From NCBI RefSeq assembly GCF_000225705.1, contig NZ_JH126470.1:200299-264298 (forward strand): a DNA stretch of 64,000 bases, written 5' to 3'. This document shows positions 3,224 to 47,829 of this stretch, in pieces (position 1 is the stretch's first letter; each line of letters opens with the position of its first letter). This DNA is from Collinsella tanakaei YIT 12063. GTDB taxonomy: Bacteria > Actinomycetota > Coriobacteriia > Coriobacteriales > Coriobacteriaceae. The position numbers and the translations under genes were made by a program. The notes beneath the pieces were generated by a model. The model worked only from the letters and a program-made list of their open reading frames with translations, did no database searches and was not told the DNA's origin.

Positions 3224-3475
3224 GTGTTGACGTGAATTCTCGAGTTTTTCGTTTTCGGTTTGCATGGTCCCAAAGGGGTGACTCTCAGTAGCCGTTGTTC
3301 ACAAGTATCTCTTGGGATATGCGCCCTTTCTTACAAATTGCTTGCTCCAATCTATCGATGGATATGTGGATAGCAGCAGGTAGATACCGTTAAACGATGG
3401 ACAATGCCCGCTTGCCGTCCGTATGGTCCTGCCCGTTTAATACGGATTAGGGTTTTGGATATGGGGGTGTTGGGA

Positions 3476-4534
3476 ATGGAGAAGATACTTTGTGACATAT
3501 CGGCGTTGAAGCTCTATCGCGTCCCACCGCGATACCTTTACATGATGCCGAACCTACCCGACTTCGATACACCGTTTGGTCGCAGCGAGCTGCGCGGAAG
3601 CCCAACGGTGTCGGAGATTTTTGGCCTGCCGATCCATGCGCTAGACACCAGGAGAAGCCTTTTGCACTCTACGTTGGTCAAGCCGCACCGATGGGACGGG
3701 CCGCTGCCCACGGGCTCGATTCTCGAGAGCCCGCATGATGTTTCCGTGACCTCGCCACTGCTTACGCTGCTCATGCTGGCATATCGCTTCTCGCCAATCC
3801 AGCTTGCAATGCTGCTCTATGAGTTCGTAGGGAAGTTTACGTTCTTTACCCCCACGCAGGTGCTTGAGGAAGCGTGCAGGGGTCTGCCGCCCGCGCCCGA
3901 GTGGGAGTTTGATGGTGGATGGAAGATGGTTCGTGATGCCAAGGGAAATCCAAGCGGGCTTTGGCAGAGGCCGCCTTTGCTGACCATGGATCAAGTGCAT
4001 GAGTTTATCGATAGGGGGAAGGGTGTTCGCGGGAGAAAGAAGCTCGCTCAAGCGATGCGCTACGTGACGGGAGTGACTCGAAGCCCGTTTGAAGCCTGTG
4101 CCTCTATGCTGCTTTGCGCGCCGCGCCGCCTTGGCGGACGCGGCTTCAGTGGCGTGCAAAACAACTTCAGGATCGATTTAAGCGAGGACGCACGCACGAT
4201 ATGCGGCCTTTCGTATGCGGAGGGTGACCTCACTTGGCTTGTGACTGCTCGTCATCCTACGACGATAGTCGAGTGTCAGGGAGGAATGACCCATAGCGGA
4301 GCGGAGGTTTCTGAGAGCGATGATGACCGGGCTCTAGCATTGGAGAATATGGGGAACGACGTGCTGCGAATCACCTATAAGCAGATAAGCGACGAGGAGA
4401 AGTTTGATCTGTTTGCATCGCATTTGGGATCAAAGCTTGGCGTTCGCCAGAATCCGCCTAGTAGCAGGATGGCGGATGCTGAAAAGGTGCTAAGACAGAC
4501 AATATTGACCGATTGGTCGGTGCTGGACGGTTGA
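3476..4534 (+). CDS. Hypothetical protein, possible AbiEi/Vsr-like nuclease fold
   Basis: Unrecognised protein of 352 aa. The N-terminal half contains LLTLLMLAYRFSPIQLAMLL and FTPTQVLEEACRGLP, probably helical. The C-terminal half carries TTIVECQGGMTHSG, then SDDDRALALENMGNDVLRIT. That pattern of a beta-strand E-x-Q followed by D/R, AL and G-x-x-V-L-R-x-T resembles the PD-(D/E)XK fold of Vsr and DUF559 proteins, but no catalytic activity can be claimed. ATG 3476 (MEKILCDISALKLYR) is preferred because GGGGG lies 10 nt upstream; ATG 3461 and ATG 3404 are in frame. The gene lies alone between copies 1 and 2 of the 140-bp inverted repeat, which suggests cassette-like gain. Confidence 0.72.
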   Translation: MEKILCDISALKLYRVPPRYLYMMPNLPDFDTPFGRSELRGSPTVSEIFGLPIHALDTRRSLLHSTLVKPHRWDGPLPTGSILESPHDVSVTSPLLTLLMLAYRFSPIQLAMLLYEFVGKFTFFTPTQVLEEACRGLPPAPEWEFDGGWKMVRDAKGNPSGLWQRPPLLTMDQVHEFIDRGKGVRGRKKLAQAMRYVTGVTRSPFEACASMLLCAPRRLGGRGFSGVQNNFRIDLSEDARTICGLSYAEGDLTWLVTARHPTTIVECQGGMTHSGAEVSESDDDRALALENMGNDVLRITYKQISDEEKFDLFASHLGSKLGVRQNPPSSRMADAEKVLRQTILTDWSVLDG

Positions 4535-23563: not shown

Positions 23564-24565
23564 ATGTCTGAGATCAACGAGACTGTAGAGACCATGGACG
23601 AGAACGTAGAGACCATCGAGACCGTTGAGACCGCTGTCGAGGCAGTGGAGGAGTCCGCCGGCGAGCAGGTTGCCGCCGAGAACGAGAACGAGACCGAGAC
23701 CGTCGTCGAGGACGAGGCCGCCGAGGTTGTCGAGGAGACCGCCGAGGTCGAGGATGACAACTCCGACGACGAGCTGTTTGATAAGACCAACCGCGCCGCC
23801 CGCCTGCTGCGCGCCCGTCGCGCCGTGATGGGTCGCGAGGCTGAGGCCCGCGCCGCCCGCATGGAGGACCTCAAGCGCGCCCTCAAGCTCCTGGAGCTCA
23901 AGCCCAAGATGGAGCAGAAGGAGATGGCCGACCTGCTGGGCATGCGCCTGCGCGAGCTGGACGCCCTGCTGGCCGAGGCCGAGGCTGCCGACATCGTGGC
24001 CCGCGTCGAGCCCGCTGACGAGCCCGATATGCGCAAGGTTGTTGTCTACACCGGTGAGGACGCCGTCGCCCGCGTCGGCGTGCTCGCCAAGAAGCAGGAC
24101 AAGCTGGTTCCCAGCCTTGACGACGAGGAGACCGAGCAGCTGCTCGCCCTGCTGAGCAAGGTCATCGACCCCCTGACCGCTATGGGTCTGGACAATGATG
24201 ACGATCGCGGCGGCCGCGGCGGCTTTGGCGGCCGCGGTGGCGACCGTGGTGGCCGCGGCGGCTTTGGCGGCCGTGATGACCGTGGTCCCCGTCGCGATGA
24301 CCGTGGCCCGCGTCGCGACTTCGACCGCGGTGGCGACCGTGGCGGTCGCGGTGGCTTCGGTGGCCGCGATGACCGTGGTCCGCGTCGTGACGATCGCGGT
24401 CCCCGTCGTGATTTCGATCGTGGTGGCCGTGGCGGCTTTGGCGGCCGTGACGATCGCGGTCCGCGCCGCGACTTCGACCGTGGTCCCCGTCGCGATGACC
24501 GTGGCTTTGGTGGACGCGGCAACGACCGTGGCAACCGCGGCGGCTTTGGCGGCAAGCGCTACTAA
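23564..24565 (+). CDS. Acidic/winged-helix/RGG-tailed putative nucleic-acid-binding protein
   Basis: 333-aa protein with three zones. Residues ~1-75 are Glu/Val/Thr-rich and disordered. Residues ~75-205 are helical, with a MarR-like pattern ([33 protein letters not shown]). From ~210 the protein is a repetitive Arg/Gly tail of [28 protein letters not shown] units. RGG tails bind RNA in many proteins, so an RNA or nucleoid role is plausible but not shown. AGGAGG precedes ATG 23564; the longer in-frame extension upstream runs into the ATPase pseudogene and is not used. Codons are highly biased, suggesting strong expression. Confidence 0.8.
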
Positions 24566-43849: not shown

Positions 43850-43920
43850 GCTAATCTGTGCCGCTGATTTGGGGCTACTGATCCGGGGCTGCTAATCAAG
43901 CGTTGCTAATCCGGTGCCTG
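43850..43920 (+). repeat. About five degenerate ~14-bp tandem repeats
   Basis: Units of the form GCTAATCCGGTGCC (GCTAATCTGTGCC, GCTGATTTGGGGCT, ACTGATCCGGGGCT, GCTAATCAAGCGTT) follow one another just after the thpR stop and before the guaA promoter. Confidence 0.5.
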
Positions 43921-43934
43921 ATAGCCCCTGCTTG

Positions 43935-43966
43935 TTGCGCCTAAGCTGCTGCGAATCCTATATACT
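43935..43966 (+). promoter_or_regulatory. Probable guaA promoter
   Basis: TTGCGC at 43935 and TATATA at 43959 are 18 bp apart; TATACT overlaps the latter. Start of transcription would be ~35-40 nt before the guaA ATG. Confidence 0.45.
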
Positions 43967-44006
43967 TTTAGATTGGTATATGCACTTACACATGGGAGGA
44001 GTCCAG

Positions 44007-44990
44007 ATGGATCCCAACAAGCGTCCTGACGACATGGTTCGCATCACCACCCCGGAGCTTGCTCGCACGTTTATCGACGAGCAGGTTGCCGCTTGCCGTG
44101 AGCAGATCGGCGACAAGAACGTGCTGCTCGCCCTTTCCGGCGGTGTGGACAGCTCCGTTGTCGCGGCCCTGCTGATCAAGGCGGTTGGCAAGCAGCTGAT
44201 CTGCGTGCACGTCAACCACGGCCTTATGCGCAAGGGCGAGAGCGAGCAGGTTGTCGACGTCTTCAAGAACCAGCTGGACGCCAACCTAGTCTACGTCGAC
44301 GCCACCGACCGCTTCTTGGATCTTCTGGACGGCGTTGCCGAGCCCGAGACCAAGCGCAAGATCATCGGCGCCGAGTTCATCCGCGTCTTTGAGGAAGAGG
44401 CCCGCAAGGTGGGCGACCAGGTGAGCTTCCTGGCACAGGGCACCATCTACCCCGACATCCTCGAGTCCGACGGCGTCAAGGCGCACCACAACGTTGGCGG
44501 TCTGCCCGACGACCTGCAGTTCGAGCTGTGCGAGCCCGTTCGCCTGCTGTATAAGGACGAGGTCCGCATGGTGGGTCGCGAGCTGGGCCTGCCCGAGAAC
44601 ATGGTCGAGCGCCAGCCGTTCCCCGGCCCCGGCCTGGGCGTGCGCTGCTTGGGCGCCATCACCCGCGACCGCCTGGAGGCCCTGCGCGAGGCCGACGCCA
44701 TCCTGCGCGAGGAGTTCGCCGCAGCCGGTCTCGAGGGCAAGGTTTGGCAGTACTTTGTCTCCGTGCCCGACTTCCGCGTCACCGGCGTGAAGGACGGCAA
44801 GCGCCTCTACGAGTGGCCGGCGTTCATCCGCGCCGTCAACACCGTCGACGCCATGACCGCCGAGGTCCCCGAGCTCGACTGGGCGCTGCTCAAGAAGATC
44901 GGCGACCGCATCGCCTCCGAGGTTCCGGGCATTTGCCGCGTCCTGTACGACCTCACGCCCAAGCCTTGCGGAACGATTGAGTTCGAGTAA
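44007..44990 (+). CDS. guaA: GMP synthase, ATP-pyrophosphatase subunit (no glutaminase domain)
   Basis: ATP-PPase half of GMP synthase, 327 aa, converting XMP to GMP in purine synthesis. PP-loop VLLALSGGVDSSVVAAL near residue 40; VHVNHGLMRKGESEQ; the XMP site ERQPFPGPGLGVRCLG; C-terminal dimer domain ending PKPCGTIEFE. Most bacterial GuaA proteins (~510 aa) have an N-terminal class I glutaminase, which is absent here. The enzyme must use a separate glutaminase subunit, as in archaea, or free ammonia. ATG 44007 follows GGGAGGAG. Codons are heavily biased, so expression is likely high. Confidence 0.93.
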   Translation: MDPNKRPDDMVRITTPELARTFIDEQVAACREQIGDKNVLLALSGGVDSSVVAALLIKAVGKQLICVHVNHGLMRKGESEQVVDVFKNQLDANLVYVDATDRFLDLLDGVAEPETKRKIIGAEFIRVFEEEARKVGDQVSFLAQGTIYPDILESDGVKAHHNVGGLPDDLQFELCEPVRLLYKDEVRMVGRELGLPENMVERQPFPGPGLGVRCLGAITRDRLEALREADAILREEFAAAGLEGKVWQYFVSVPDFRVTGVKDGKRLYEWPAFIRAVNTVDAMTAEVPELDWALLKKIGDRIASEVPGICRVLYDLTPKPCGTIEFE

Positions 44991-45090: not shown

Positions 45091-45105
45091 AGAGCGGTGG
45101 GGGAT

Positions 45106-45388
45106 GTCAAAAAACGCCTTAGTGCGGAAAGGGCGGAGTGTCAAAAAGTGCCTTAGTGCGGGGGTTTGGTCAAATAGTGCGTTAGTACGGATTGGAGTCG
45201 CCCTGACGGGCTCGCCTTATACATCGAGCGGTGGTGCCCGAGCTTTCTAACTCGAACGACGCGAACGCTCTATTCATAAGGTACCATTACTATCTATCGC
45301 CCATTCCGCACTAACTCAATATTTGGTCCAAAATCTTCCGCACTAAGCGACTATTTGACCTAAGTTCCGCGCTAACTCGAAATTTGTC
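45106..45388. repeat. Symmetric array of six ~23-bp repeats, three in each orientation
   Basis: Units at 45106-45128, 45140-45162 and 45169-45191 read GTCAAAWAGTG then CSTTAGTGCGG. Units at 45305-45328, 45337-45359 and 45366-45388 are the same motif inverted (TCCGCACTAA then a TATTTGAC-like end). Start-to-start spacings are 34 and 29 bp on the left and 32 and 29 bp on the right. The half TTAGTGCGGA is best conserved. The 113-bp centre has no gene. It lies between the guaA terminator and the 3' end of the HipA-like gene, so it is not a promoter of either. The layout resembles multi-site ends of Tn7/Mu-type transposons. Confidence 0.85.
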
Positions 45389-45436
45389 CTACCTGGAGCC
45401 TGCGTCCTTCTTCTGGTCGATAATTCAGATTAGAAG

Positions 45437-46825
45437 CTATCGCCAGCCGCGGTGGGCAAACTGCAGCGCCTCCATCGCCGCGGATACCTGGTCCACACGC
45501 TTTTGAAGCCCGCGCGCAATGTAGTCAAGCCGTCCGTTTGCGGCTGCGTGCTTGCTGTGCGAGAGAATCTCGACCGCCTCGTCCACAAAACCGGATAAAG
45601 CAGCGTGATCAAAAGCGGTGGGGTCATACCATGAAAGGTCGTTGGCAAGCGCCAGCTGGTGCGCGGGATTGGGTTCAAACGGCCTGCTTTGAAACGTCCA
45701 GTCGTTTCGCTCTACCTGCTGCGGCGTCTTGTTGTACCACAGCGAGTTGCCGGAGTCGAAAAGAGGCGCGGGGCGCATCTGCAGCGTGTCGACCGAGCGG
45801 ATAAAGCCAAAGTTGCACCAATGCCGGTCCGTGTTCGCAAGGATTGCGTCGCATACGATCATCTGCGACAGCGCACAGTGCATGTTAGCGGCATCGCATG
45901 CGTGGCGCTCCGCAAAGCGGACCAGGCGATCGTACGTTGTGGCCCCGCGCATGGAAGAAAGGTCGCCGCGAACAAGCGCCGCCGGAACGTACTCCTCGCG
46001 CTCGCCCAAGAAATTGGGGCATAGGCACAAGGGGCCGTCTTGGATGTGCGCAAGGGTGTAGGGAACGTATTCGTCCGGCTGCAGCAGGCGGCAGTACAGG
46101 GCGGTCGCTACGACCTCGTTAAACGGTCGCTGGTCATCGCCCGTGCAGCCTTTGGCAAGGCAACGCACGCCATCGCGGATAACCCAGCGCTTTGGCAGCT
46201 CGCCCTCAGACGTGTTGTCGGGCGAATCGAGCCCCACCGCACTGAGCCAGTTATCCCACGCCATAAGGTTTGACTGGACAAAGTCGTTCTCAAAATAGTT
46301 GACGTCGCTCCACTGTAGGGTCTCATTGGTGGCGGGCCGCAGCCAATAACAGTCCGAGAGCGAGAGCGCCATGTTATTGAGGGGCAGCAAGGAGAAGTCG
46401 GCAATCTCGATTTGGCCAAGGCGGGCGAGCAGCCCTGGACGAGAGGCAGGAACGGACCTGTGTCCCCACCAGTCCGTGACGTTTCGGGGTTTCGTCTTGC
46501 CGCCGGAGGTGACGGTGCCAAGGGGCATGCGCGGCGCATCCAGGATCTCGCGAACAACCAGGGGGTTATCTTTCCGCGGGTCATGGCGCACCACTGCAAC
46601 CTCATGGTCGGCAGACATAAGGACAAAGGTTCGCGATGCGTCGAACTCGACTGCGGCAGCCTTTCCCGCAAGGTAGCGTTCGGTCGAATCGCCATCGATC
46701 ATCCGCCTGCCGCCAACAAGCGACCCCGTTAGCTCGCCTGATGAAAGCAATTGCGAGATTCGCGGCTTGGTCACGCCCAGCGCTCGTGCCGCATCTCCCA
46801 TGGGAATATAGGTATCGCCACCCAT
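45437..46825 (-). CDS. HipA-like Ser/Thr kinase with N-terminal HTH
   Basis: 462-aa protein. Residues ~1-50 form an excisionase/MerR-like DNA-binding module (YIPMGDAARALGVTKPRISQ, then LLSSGELTGSLVGGRRMI). The remainder has HipA-type kinase features: CLAKGCTGDDQRPFNEVVAT, catalytic ILANTDRHWCNFGFI (Asp and Asn) and metal-binding PAPLFDSGNSLWY. In classical HipBA the antitoxin HTH is a separate protein; here the HTH is in the same chain. No separate hipB gene is seen. ATG 46823-46825 is chosen for domain fit; an in-frame GTG 24 nt upstream and further codons overlap an AT-rich promoter-like region. Role in stress tolerance or defence is inferred. Confidence 0.72.
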   Translation of the reverse strand: MGGDTYIPMGDAARALGVTKPRISQLLSSGELTGSLVGGRRMIDGDSTERYLAGKAAAVEFDASRTFVLMSADHEVAVVRHDPRKDNPLVVREILDAPRMPLGTVTSGGKTKPRNVTDWWGHRSVPASRPGLLARLGQIEIADFSLLPLNNMALSLSDCYWLRPATNETLQWSDVNYFENDFVQSNLMAWDNWLSAVGLDSPDNTSEGELPKRWVIRDGVRCLAKGCTGDDQRPFNEVVATALYCRLLQPDEYVPYTLAHIQDGPLCLCPNFLGEREEYVPAALVRGDLSSMRGATTYDRLVRFAERHACDAANMHCALSQMIVCDAILANTDRHWCNFGFIRSVDTLQMRPAPLFDSGNSLWYNKTPQQVERNDWTFQSRPFEPNPAHQLALANDLSWYDPTAFDHAALSGFVDEAVEILSHSKHAAANGRLDYIARGLQKRVDQVSAAMEALQFAHRGWR

Positions 46826-46968
46826 TGCCGCACCACCAATCACTACCACGTTAAATAAGCGTTGACAATTACATATACGTCTACAATGATAGCAATTAAT
46901 TATGTGGACGATGAAGCGTGACCGTGTTTGGATTGGCGACGTCTCCGGCTGCGGCGGCACGGCGCCCG

Positions 46969-47829
46969 TTACAGGGAGCACGCCAGAAGGTCCGGGCGCT
47001 GCAGGACTCGTCGCAGCGAGTTGGACAGATGCGCCAGGCGATTATCGAGCATCGCCAGCGCGCCAAAGGCGTAGTGGCTGCGCCCTTCCTCGTCCTCGAT
47101 AATCAGCGTCCATGTGCCGCTATTCGATTCGTACACGTTGCAGCAATGGCATCCCATCCAGTCAGACGCTTCATCGAGCAAGCGGGCGGCTTCGTCCTTC
47201 GATATGGAGATGTAGGAGTCGGATGAGATGCAGCTGCGCCCGTATTCGTCCAAATAATGATCGACCAGGCGGCAGTCGCCGTTTTGATGGAGCTCCAGCC
47301 GCTGGTGCACAAGGGGGCTTCGCGAGGGCTGCCGGCTGTGATCGTGCGTGCTCGATATAAGGTAGAGCGCGGTGGGCTGGCAGGTCAGCGGCGCGGACGA
47401 GTTCTCGCCCGCGAGCTGCGCCAATCGTTCGAGCGCTAGGATGAACCACAGGCGCACCTCGTGCCCCGCGGCTTTGCAGCGGGCCTTGTCCGTCGCCCAG
47501 AAATGATGGCTCACCAGGTGCGAAACCTGATCCCATTTTGACATGACGGCCGATCCCAGAAGCGAGGCGTCCGTGACGGCGGGCAGATGCCAGTCCAGCT
47601 CCTCGAGGTTGTCGAAGGCGCCGGGATACGTGGCGTCGAAGGCCTCGCCCGCATCGTCCATATATCCAAGCGCGGCGCAGCCGGCGCGAAACTCGCCTGT
47701 GTCCAGCAGCTGGTGCAGGTTTTGGCGGCTGTCCCTAAAGCGCGGCAGCCATTTGCGGGTGAAGTCTCGCAGGGCGTTGGCAGCGGCTGCGGCGGGGGCC
47801 GCGTCGGCGGCTGCGGTAGTGGACGTCAT
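46969..47829 (-). CDS. Hypothetical protein
   Basis: 286-aa protein that I do not recognise. After an Ala/Thr-rich start (MTSTTAAADAAPAAAAANAL) it shows RDFTRKWLPRFRDSRQNLHQ, EELDWHLPAVTDASLLGSAV and, in the C-terminal third, LDEASDWMGCHCCNVYESNS and WTLIIEDEEGRSHYAFGAL. No signal peptide or membrane segment. AAAGGAGGAGCCC precedes the ATG at 47827-47829; the longer in-frame opening upstream is not used. It is transcribed away from the hexosaminidase end and 143 bp before the HipA-like start on the same strand. The 47830-48079 gap shows only a possible GGGCGCCCC-type hairpin (GGGCGCCCCGC / GCGGGGCGCCC, 47979-48014). Confidence 0.7.
   Translation of the reverse strand: MTSTTAAADAAPAAAAANALRDFTRKWLPRFRDSRQNLHQLLDTGEFRAGCAALGYMDDAGEAFDATYPGAFDNLEELDWHLPAVTDASLLGSAVMSKWDQVSHLVSHHFWATDKARCKAAGHEVRLWFILALERLAQLAGENSSAPLTCQPTALYLISSTHDHSRQPSRSPLVHQRLELHQNGDCRLVDHYLDEYGRSCISSDSYISISKDEAARLLDEASDWMGCHCCNVYESNSGTWTLIIEDEEGRSHYAFGALAMLDNRLAHLSNSLRRVLQRPDLLACSL

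Follow-up and report, generated by a model that had tools for sequence, protein, structure and literature searches.

The array of six short boxes at positions 45105–45389 of the window (the whole analyzed stretch of 64,000 nucleotides) belongs to a family of non-coding, intergenic, two-fold symmetric elements of ~290 bp that occupies 26 places in the genome, with 24 two-sided copies and two deletion derivatives, the window array included. The copies descend by whole-block copying, and their boxes, to judge from the pattern of sequence conservation, are probably maintained in place as protein-binding sites. The explanation that we favor, and for which we see about an even chance of being correct, is that of an old MITE-like family with boxes that have been retained where they lie, as stations at which protein binds to several sites. 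To date, the element is known from a single genome.

Architecture of the array in the window

The array in the window consists of three direct copies of the repeat (45105–45127, 45139–45161, and 45168–45190, spaced by 34 and 29 bp) and three inverted ones (45304–45325, 45336–45357, and 45365–45386, spaced by 32 and 29 bp), with 113 bp between the two sets and with the boxes following each other in the order L3, L2, L1 on the left and R1, R2, R3 on the right. The number of copies, their orientations, and the near-mirror spacing given in the preliminary description were all reproduced; the 113 bp between the sets, which had been described as free of genes, includes no ORF of at least 80 aa, nor does the array as a whole. 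A sharper box unit, CAAAWA-N5-TTAGTGCGG, with the length of ~20 bp, was built from 114 boxes in the genome. Because these boxes were chosen by exact TTAGTGCGG, only the CAAAWA half of the unit is an independent finding, with AAA within this half present in 114/114 boxes. The parts of the window copy are as follows.

45108–45127, plus strand: box L3 (CAAAAA-N5-TTAGTGCGG), outermost on the left and not present in every copy of the family
45142–45161, plus strand: box L2, a core box, no mismatches
45171–45190, plus strand: box L1, a core box, one mismatch (TTAGTACGG)
45191–45305, no strand: core separating the two box blocks, homologous in 24/24 two-sided copies
45216–45225, plus strand: core block CTTATACATC, which mirrors the block on the right side
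45231–45262, no strand: imperfect palindrome near the two-fold axis, consensus GCATCGCCCGAGC-N6-GCTCGGGCGATGC, positioned by hand from the alignment
45271–45285, plus strand: core block TATTCATAAGGTACC, mean pairwise difference 0.05
45306–45325, minus strand: box R1, a core box, no mismatches
45338–45357, minus strand: box R2, a core box, no mismatches
45367–45386, minus strand: box R3, a core box, two mismatches in the window copy

Box R4, found in other copies, is absent here, the best match at its position having nine mismatches. The core palindrome is poorly kept in the window copy, and TATTCATAAGGTACC is the most conserved among the core blocks measured.

A chance origin of the array was considered and rejected, since the box counts lie above shuffles, the reversed pattern, and other controls. 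In the window, TTAGTGCGGA with at most one mismatch has eight matches, six of them inside the array, compared with 2.9 expected and with a maximum of seven in 100 shuffles. Genome-wide, there are 74 exact matches to TTAGTGCGGA versus two for the reversed pattern, and all 74 are located, by position, in array places. The unit CAAAWA-N5-TTAGTGCGG, with at most two mismatches allowed, yields 145 boxes in the genome versus one for the control.

Copies of the element in the genome

The places were found by exact boxes (24) and by BLAST with one copy as the query (26). Five core boxes (L2 and L1 on the left; R1, R2, and R3 on the right), facing inward around a core of ~113 bp, are present in 22 of the 24 two-sided copies, with L013 and L014 each one right core box short. 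Overall, the two-sided copies carry two to three left boxes and two to four right boxes; when a box is counted as present with at most three mismatches, the outer box L3 is found in 11/24 copies and R4 in 12/24. Some boxes are dispensable, given how often these outer ones are absent and that two copies do without one of the right core boxes. The spacing varies little: L2–L1 is 29 bp in 23/24 copies, L1–R1 is identical in 19/24, R1–R2 is 32 bp in 21/24, and R2–R3 is 29 bp in 21/22. Mean mismatches per 15 positions are 0.29 for L2, 0.04 for L1, 0.25 for R1, 0.08 for R2, and 1.00 for R3, the last value resulting from the two copies without R3, while the best box matches in the background mostly have 7–11 mismatches.

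One deletion derivative (L011) has lost its middle and retains two perfectly inverted outer boxes, and the other (L020) is half an element. Both were omitted from the box, core, spacing, edge, fold, and divergence analyses of the two-sided copies, and the two copies one right box short were also dropped from the pairwise-difference, tree and parsimony, and core-block analyses.

Linkers and core are homologous between the copies, with a mean column identity of 77% in alignment A1 and a mean pairwise identity outside the boxes of ~64–65% in 22 copies, and the core includes mirrored CTTATGMAT blocks. As linkers and core are common to the copies, the family must have been copied as whole blocks. 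In the best 45 pairs, the homology stops at the outermost shared boxes or a few bases from them; thus, homologous non-coding copies with common ends are found at unrelated sites, as in MITE families. The preliminary description proposed a genome search with the consensus, in which 3+3-type units were expected to recur, and named a single immobile copy as the outcome that would speak against it. Such units do recur, at 26 places, and since they recur as a block, that objection fails. The same description also named variable cargo or a nearby DDE transposase with an AAA partner as support, and a target duplication as a feature to look for. There is no variable cargo among the two-sided copies, all 24 of which have a homologous core, and the results for the other two are described below.

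Conservation of the boxes and decay of the remaining sequence

In 22 of the 24 two-sided copies, pairs differ on average by 0.039 in CAAAWA and by 0.030 in TTAGTGCGG, compared with 0.34–0.36 in spacers, linkers, and core. The tree of the copies is star-like, with long terminal branches and with moderate support (0.48–0.95), and the changes were divided by parsimony on this single tree. On terminal branches, 26 changes fall in 75 box columns versus 530 in 185 other columns, corresponding to an approximately 8-fold constraint on the boxes, whereas on internal branches the numbers are 1 and 214, respectively. The two closest copies differ by 10%, with only one of their 26 differences located in boxes, which make up 75 of the 260 columns; in the three closest pairs, two of which share L016, box differences number 1/26, 3/28, and 0/32. 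A caveat is that among these 22 copies the one in the window shows more box changes than any other (four, by parsimony).

Free decay since insertion would make box changes as frequent as the others, and the observed difference argues for maintenance in place. Neutral decay after insertion, expected for MITEs, is thus not found in these 22 copies. An explanation by very young copies derived from long-diverged, vanished sources is strained, because even the closest pair is 10% different. We would therefore argue, from the contrast between the conserved boxes and the decay of the rest, that the boxes still act in place. No decayed copies without boxes appeared in the exact-box and BLAST searches; copies were found either via boxes or by BLAST, which is also helped by box conservation, and decayed copies may be under-counted.

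The imperfect palindrome of the core is centered ~1.5 bp off the array axis, as placed by hand from the alignment. In it, 73.3% of cells pair, compared with 70.0% in shuffles and 25–34% when the pairing is slid, and double changes number 22 versus 13.4 in shuffles (1 of 500). Free folding of the alignment does not predict the palindrome hairpin, and a covarying fold of this region is suggestive, not firm. A known structured RNA was considered as well, with no Rfam family matched across 801 bp.

Comparison with mobile elements and REP sequences

Several inward-facing sites of ~20 bp at each end, characteristic of the Mu, Tn7, and Tn5053 group, are present in the elements described here, with three on the left and three to four on the right in the fullest copies. 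In the excerpt of the Tn7 account cited here, that transposon has three TnsB sites on the left and four on the right (PMC8649781), and VchCAST, likewise in excerpt, has three sites per end, an 8-bp terminal end, and a conserved terminal TG (PMC10201428). The likeness to Mu/Tn7 end geometry pointed out in the preliminary description is thus sound as far as the inward multi-site blocks are concerned. The arrays differ, however, from Tn7-like and CAST ends by their constant core of ~113 bp, the lack of cargo, and their presence at 26 diverged places, as well as by the absence of a detectable target duplication and of a cognate transposase from any of the three families covered by the search. Membership in the Mu/Tn7-type transposons is not supported, and Tn7-like end geometry by itself does not identify a transposon, although by analogy the array may work like a paired-end complex.

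Terminal sequences and edges were compared in 22 of the 24 two-sided copies, with L085 and L086 left out. The outermost box starts with TGTG on the left in 9/22 copies and on the right in 4/22, and inner boxes often carry TGTG too. No target duplication exceeds the cross-pair controls: a match of 5–6 bp near the edges is found in 6/22 copies, and ~21% of cross pairs reach at least 5 bp. In L001, a match of 9 bp at 35/35 bp was rejected as a target duplication, not being unusual among cross pairs.

The transposase search covered PF09299, PF00665, and PF01797. PF09299 has no match in the genome, but none in the controls either; PF00665 has one match below the cut-off, to an IS21-type ORF, with 6/14 controls positive; and PF01797 (Y1_Tnp) has none in the genome, with 5/14 controls positive. 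The only pair of DDE and AAA proteins found, an IS21-type DDE ORF (Mu-transpos_C_2) with its IstB partner, is located on the 3.65-kb contig C12 (L097). This element shares with the arrays its presence in the same genome and, as judged by eye, repeated motifs near its presumed left end, before its first gene. These motifs are GAAA(A)TGGTAA-like, and no box within four mismatches occurs on the contig. The pair sits directly behind the end of an IS110-type transposase, and the contig is perhaps a collapsed repeat. Elsewhere, two segments ~9 kb apart (L001 23–244 and L002 2441–2662) are inverted and 79% identical and resemble by eye the N-terminal part of IS110 transposases; no Pfam family was matched by L001 1–243.

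Bacterial MITEs are short, non-coding, intergenic, multi-copy sequences that are copied as blocks and have inverted ends. The elements described here share all of these features, but differ in having multi-box ends, in showing no target duplication, and in the apparent selection on their boxes after dispersal. With REP/BIME sequences they share regularly spaced units in two orientations, the extragenic location, and a proposed role in the chromosome, and BIMEs are reported, in the excerpt cited, to bind several proteins (PMC2817692). The REP/BIME unit is, however, a palindrome of 20–40 bp, whereas the box is directional, and no Y1_Tnp gene was found in the genome; this assignment therefore failed on both the unit and the transposase.

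Occurrence in other genomes

In the comparisons, each species is represented by one genome, and the host species likewise. The host genome contains 64 occurrences of the box-pair pattern, compared with none in 64 other genomes of the family; among 396 genomes sampled from the class, three others have a single occurrence each. BLAST with a whole copy against 395 genomes of the order recovered the host genome only, among the up to two candidates scored per genome listed. When the neighborhood of L017 was compared between the host and 42 congeners, the flanking genes matched, whereas the region of the element matched in the host genome only. In the 18 relatives compared at the GMP synthase gene, the sequence downstream of it is a different one, and the element is absent. 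No clean empty site was found, relatives carrying other sequence or another gene order at the place.

Phage and plasmid collections contain no match to the element. In GTDB r220 contigs, a collection that may omit the host genome, the pattern TTAGTGCGG-N6..14-CAAATAGTGC yields seven stretches, none of them an array; by eye, six come from a single MAG, where the start of one gene is repeated close to the ends of contigs, and the remaining one is an isolated match in Serratia. A longer pattern matched three stretches of viral contigs, which, also by eye, are variants of a single sequence and contain no array. A scan by architecture only, for arrays built of other motifs, gave one low-complexity match in 98 congener loci (962 kb, ~765 kb of which comes from three genomes); the same scan recovers 17/26 of the host's own loci. 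A literature search by topic and motif, judged without full texts, revealed no published description of the element. A family kept by selection yet known from a single genome is unusual, which counts against the explanation that we prefer.

Proposed origin and function

According to the favored explanation, the element would have dispersed in the distant past, as a MITE-like unit bearing multi-site ends of the Mu/Tn7 type, the mobilizing transposase being now lost, supplied from outside, or of a family other than those searched. A sequence-specific protein would read each bipartite box, in which roughly one helical turn separates the A-tract CAAAWA from TTAGTGCGG. Neighboring boxes lie 29 or 32–34 bp from each other, or approximately three turns, and two spacings (61–63 bp) amount to approximately six turns, so that bound units could share one face. 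The two inward-facing blocks may then join over the core to form a single, looped nucleoprotein complex, and such complexes would be retained by selection wherever the dispersed copies lie, as stations serving chromosome architecture or insulation. The exact cellular role is the least certain step. We can speculate further that a species-private set of ~26 stations, each a two-fold symmetric array of five to seven bipartite boxes looped by a dedicated protein, was born from transposon-like ends and adopted by the host for chromosome organization or insulation, a tentative proposal that is somewhat more probably wrong than right.

The main competing explanation is a MITE family of the Mu/Tn7/Tn5053 (TnsB/MuA/TniA) type that is, or recently was, mobile, in which the boxes would be transposase sites conserved only because the lineages had to stay mobile, with a transposase outside the assembly, lost, or undetected. 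It accounts for the inward multi-site ends resembling those of Tn7 (3+4) and VchCAST (3+3) in the excerpts cited above, for blocks copied into unrelated sites with homology ending near the outermost shared boxes in the best 45 pairs, for the lower GC content of the elements, and for the existence of deletion derivatives. No pair among 22 copies is less than 10% different, however, so no recent transposition is visible, and the ~8-fold constraint on terminal branches would not be expected under neutrality after insertion. Coupled with the lack of a target duplication above controls, the single sub-cut-off match to PF00665 (controls 6/14), and no match to PF09299 (controls none), this makes recent mobility rather unlikely in our estimation, if the most serious of the competitors.

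The strong box constraint and the absence of marks of mobility in the target-duplication test would agree with sites of a regulatory or architectural role that had never moved and were built locally by duplication of boxes, but homologous linkers and core need whole-block copying, and we regard this origin as improbable. The intergenic inverted arrays and the binding of several proteins by BIMEs recall a REP/BIME-type system mobilized by a RAYT (Y1) transposase, for which directional, non-palindromic boxes and a genome without Y1_Tnp, in a search with 5/14 controls positive, leave very little room. Still less credible is a short signal distributed across the genome, for DNA uptake or another purpose. 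Such a signal comes to mind because TTAGTGCGGA resembles the Haemophilus uptake core, with AGTGCGG in common, but the exact matches to TTAGTGCGGA are all confined to array places.

If the boxes are indeed maintained in place, DNA resembling transposon ends would have been taken over, within a restricted lineage, to provide protein-binding stations across the genome. A single lineage could then serve to study how such stations arise, spread, and are adopted, and a DNA bait of defined sequence could be used to isolate the protein that binds them.

Genomic setting of the copies

All 26 places (25 in addition to the window) are situated in gaps between genes predicted by a simple codon-usage script. 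At L023, a weak ORF with no Pfam family overlaps the edge of the element by 47 bp, and the right-hand gene at L007 is a weak ORF of 49 aa. The gaps are convergent in 11 cases, divergent in 4, and tandem in 11, with convergent gaps over-represented compared to ordinary gaps of at least 60 bp (11/26 versus 14/78, p = 0.017). The convergent setting emphasized in the preliminary description is correct for the window copy, but does not extend to the copies in tandem and divergent gaps. The elements have a GC content of 0.50 compared with 0.62 in their flanks, and their orientation agrees with the local GC skew in 9/24 copies, giving no signal.

Among the 52 flanking genes, 40 were scanned, of which 36 have a Pfam match (that to HipA_C being below the cut-off) and 4 have none; no transposase or recombinase is found among these matches. 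The scanned genes are diverse, thus providing no functional theme that would support regulation. In the window, the left neighbor (43914–44990, 358 aa) matches the GMP synthase C-terminal domain (PF00958) and, in addition, has an NAD_synthase-type match, with no glutaminase domain matched in this ORF; presumably, it may be a GMP synthase of the separate-subunit type. The right neighbor (45437–46981) matches HipA_C with 26.5 bits, below the curated cut-off of 30.5. Of the guaA–hipA junction reported earlier, the GMP synthase side thus holds, while the hipA label remains weak.

Other repeats were noted as well. In L004, a tandem duplication (2358–2549 and 2656–2847, 96% identical) comprising two tRNA-Asn genes is found near an array, and in L012, inverted terminator-like copies of ~60 bp (2931–2990 and 3443–3499, 87% identical) flank an array between convergent genes. 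Self-BLAST of the window reveals imperfect direct repeats at 24196–24553, and on contig C10 (L141) two large open frames have a common N-terminal stretch, as in repeated surface proteins.
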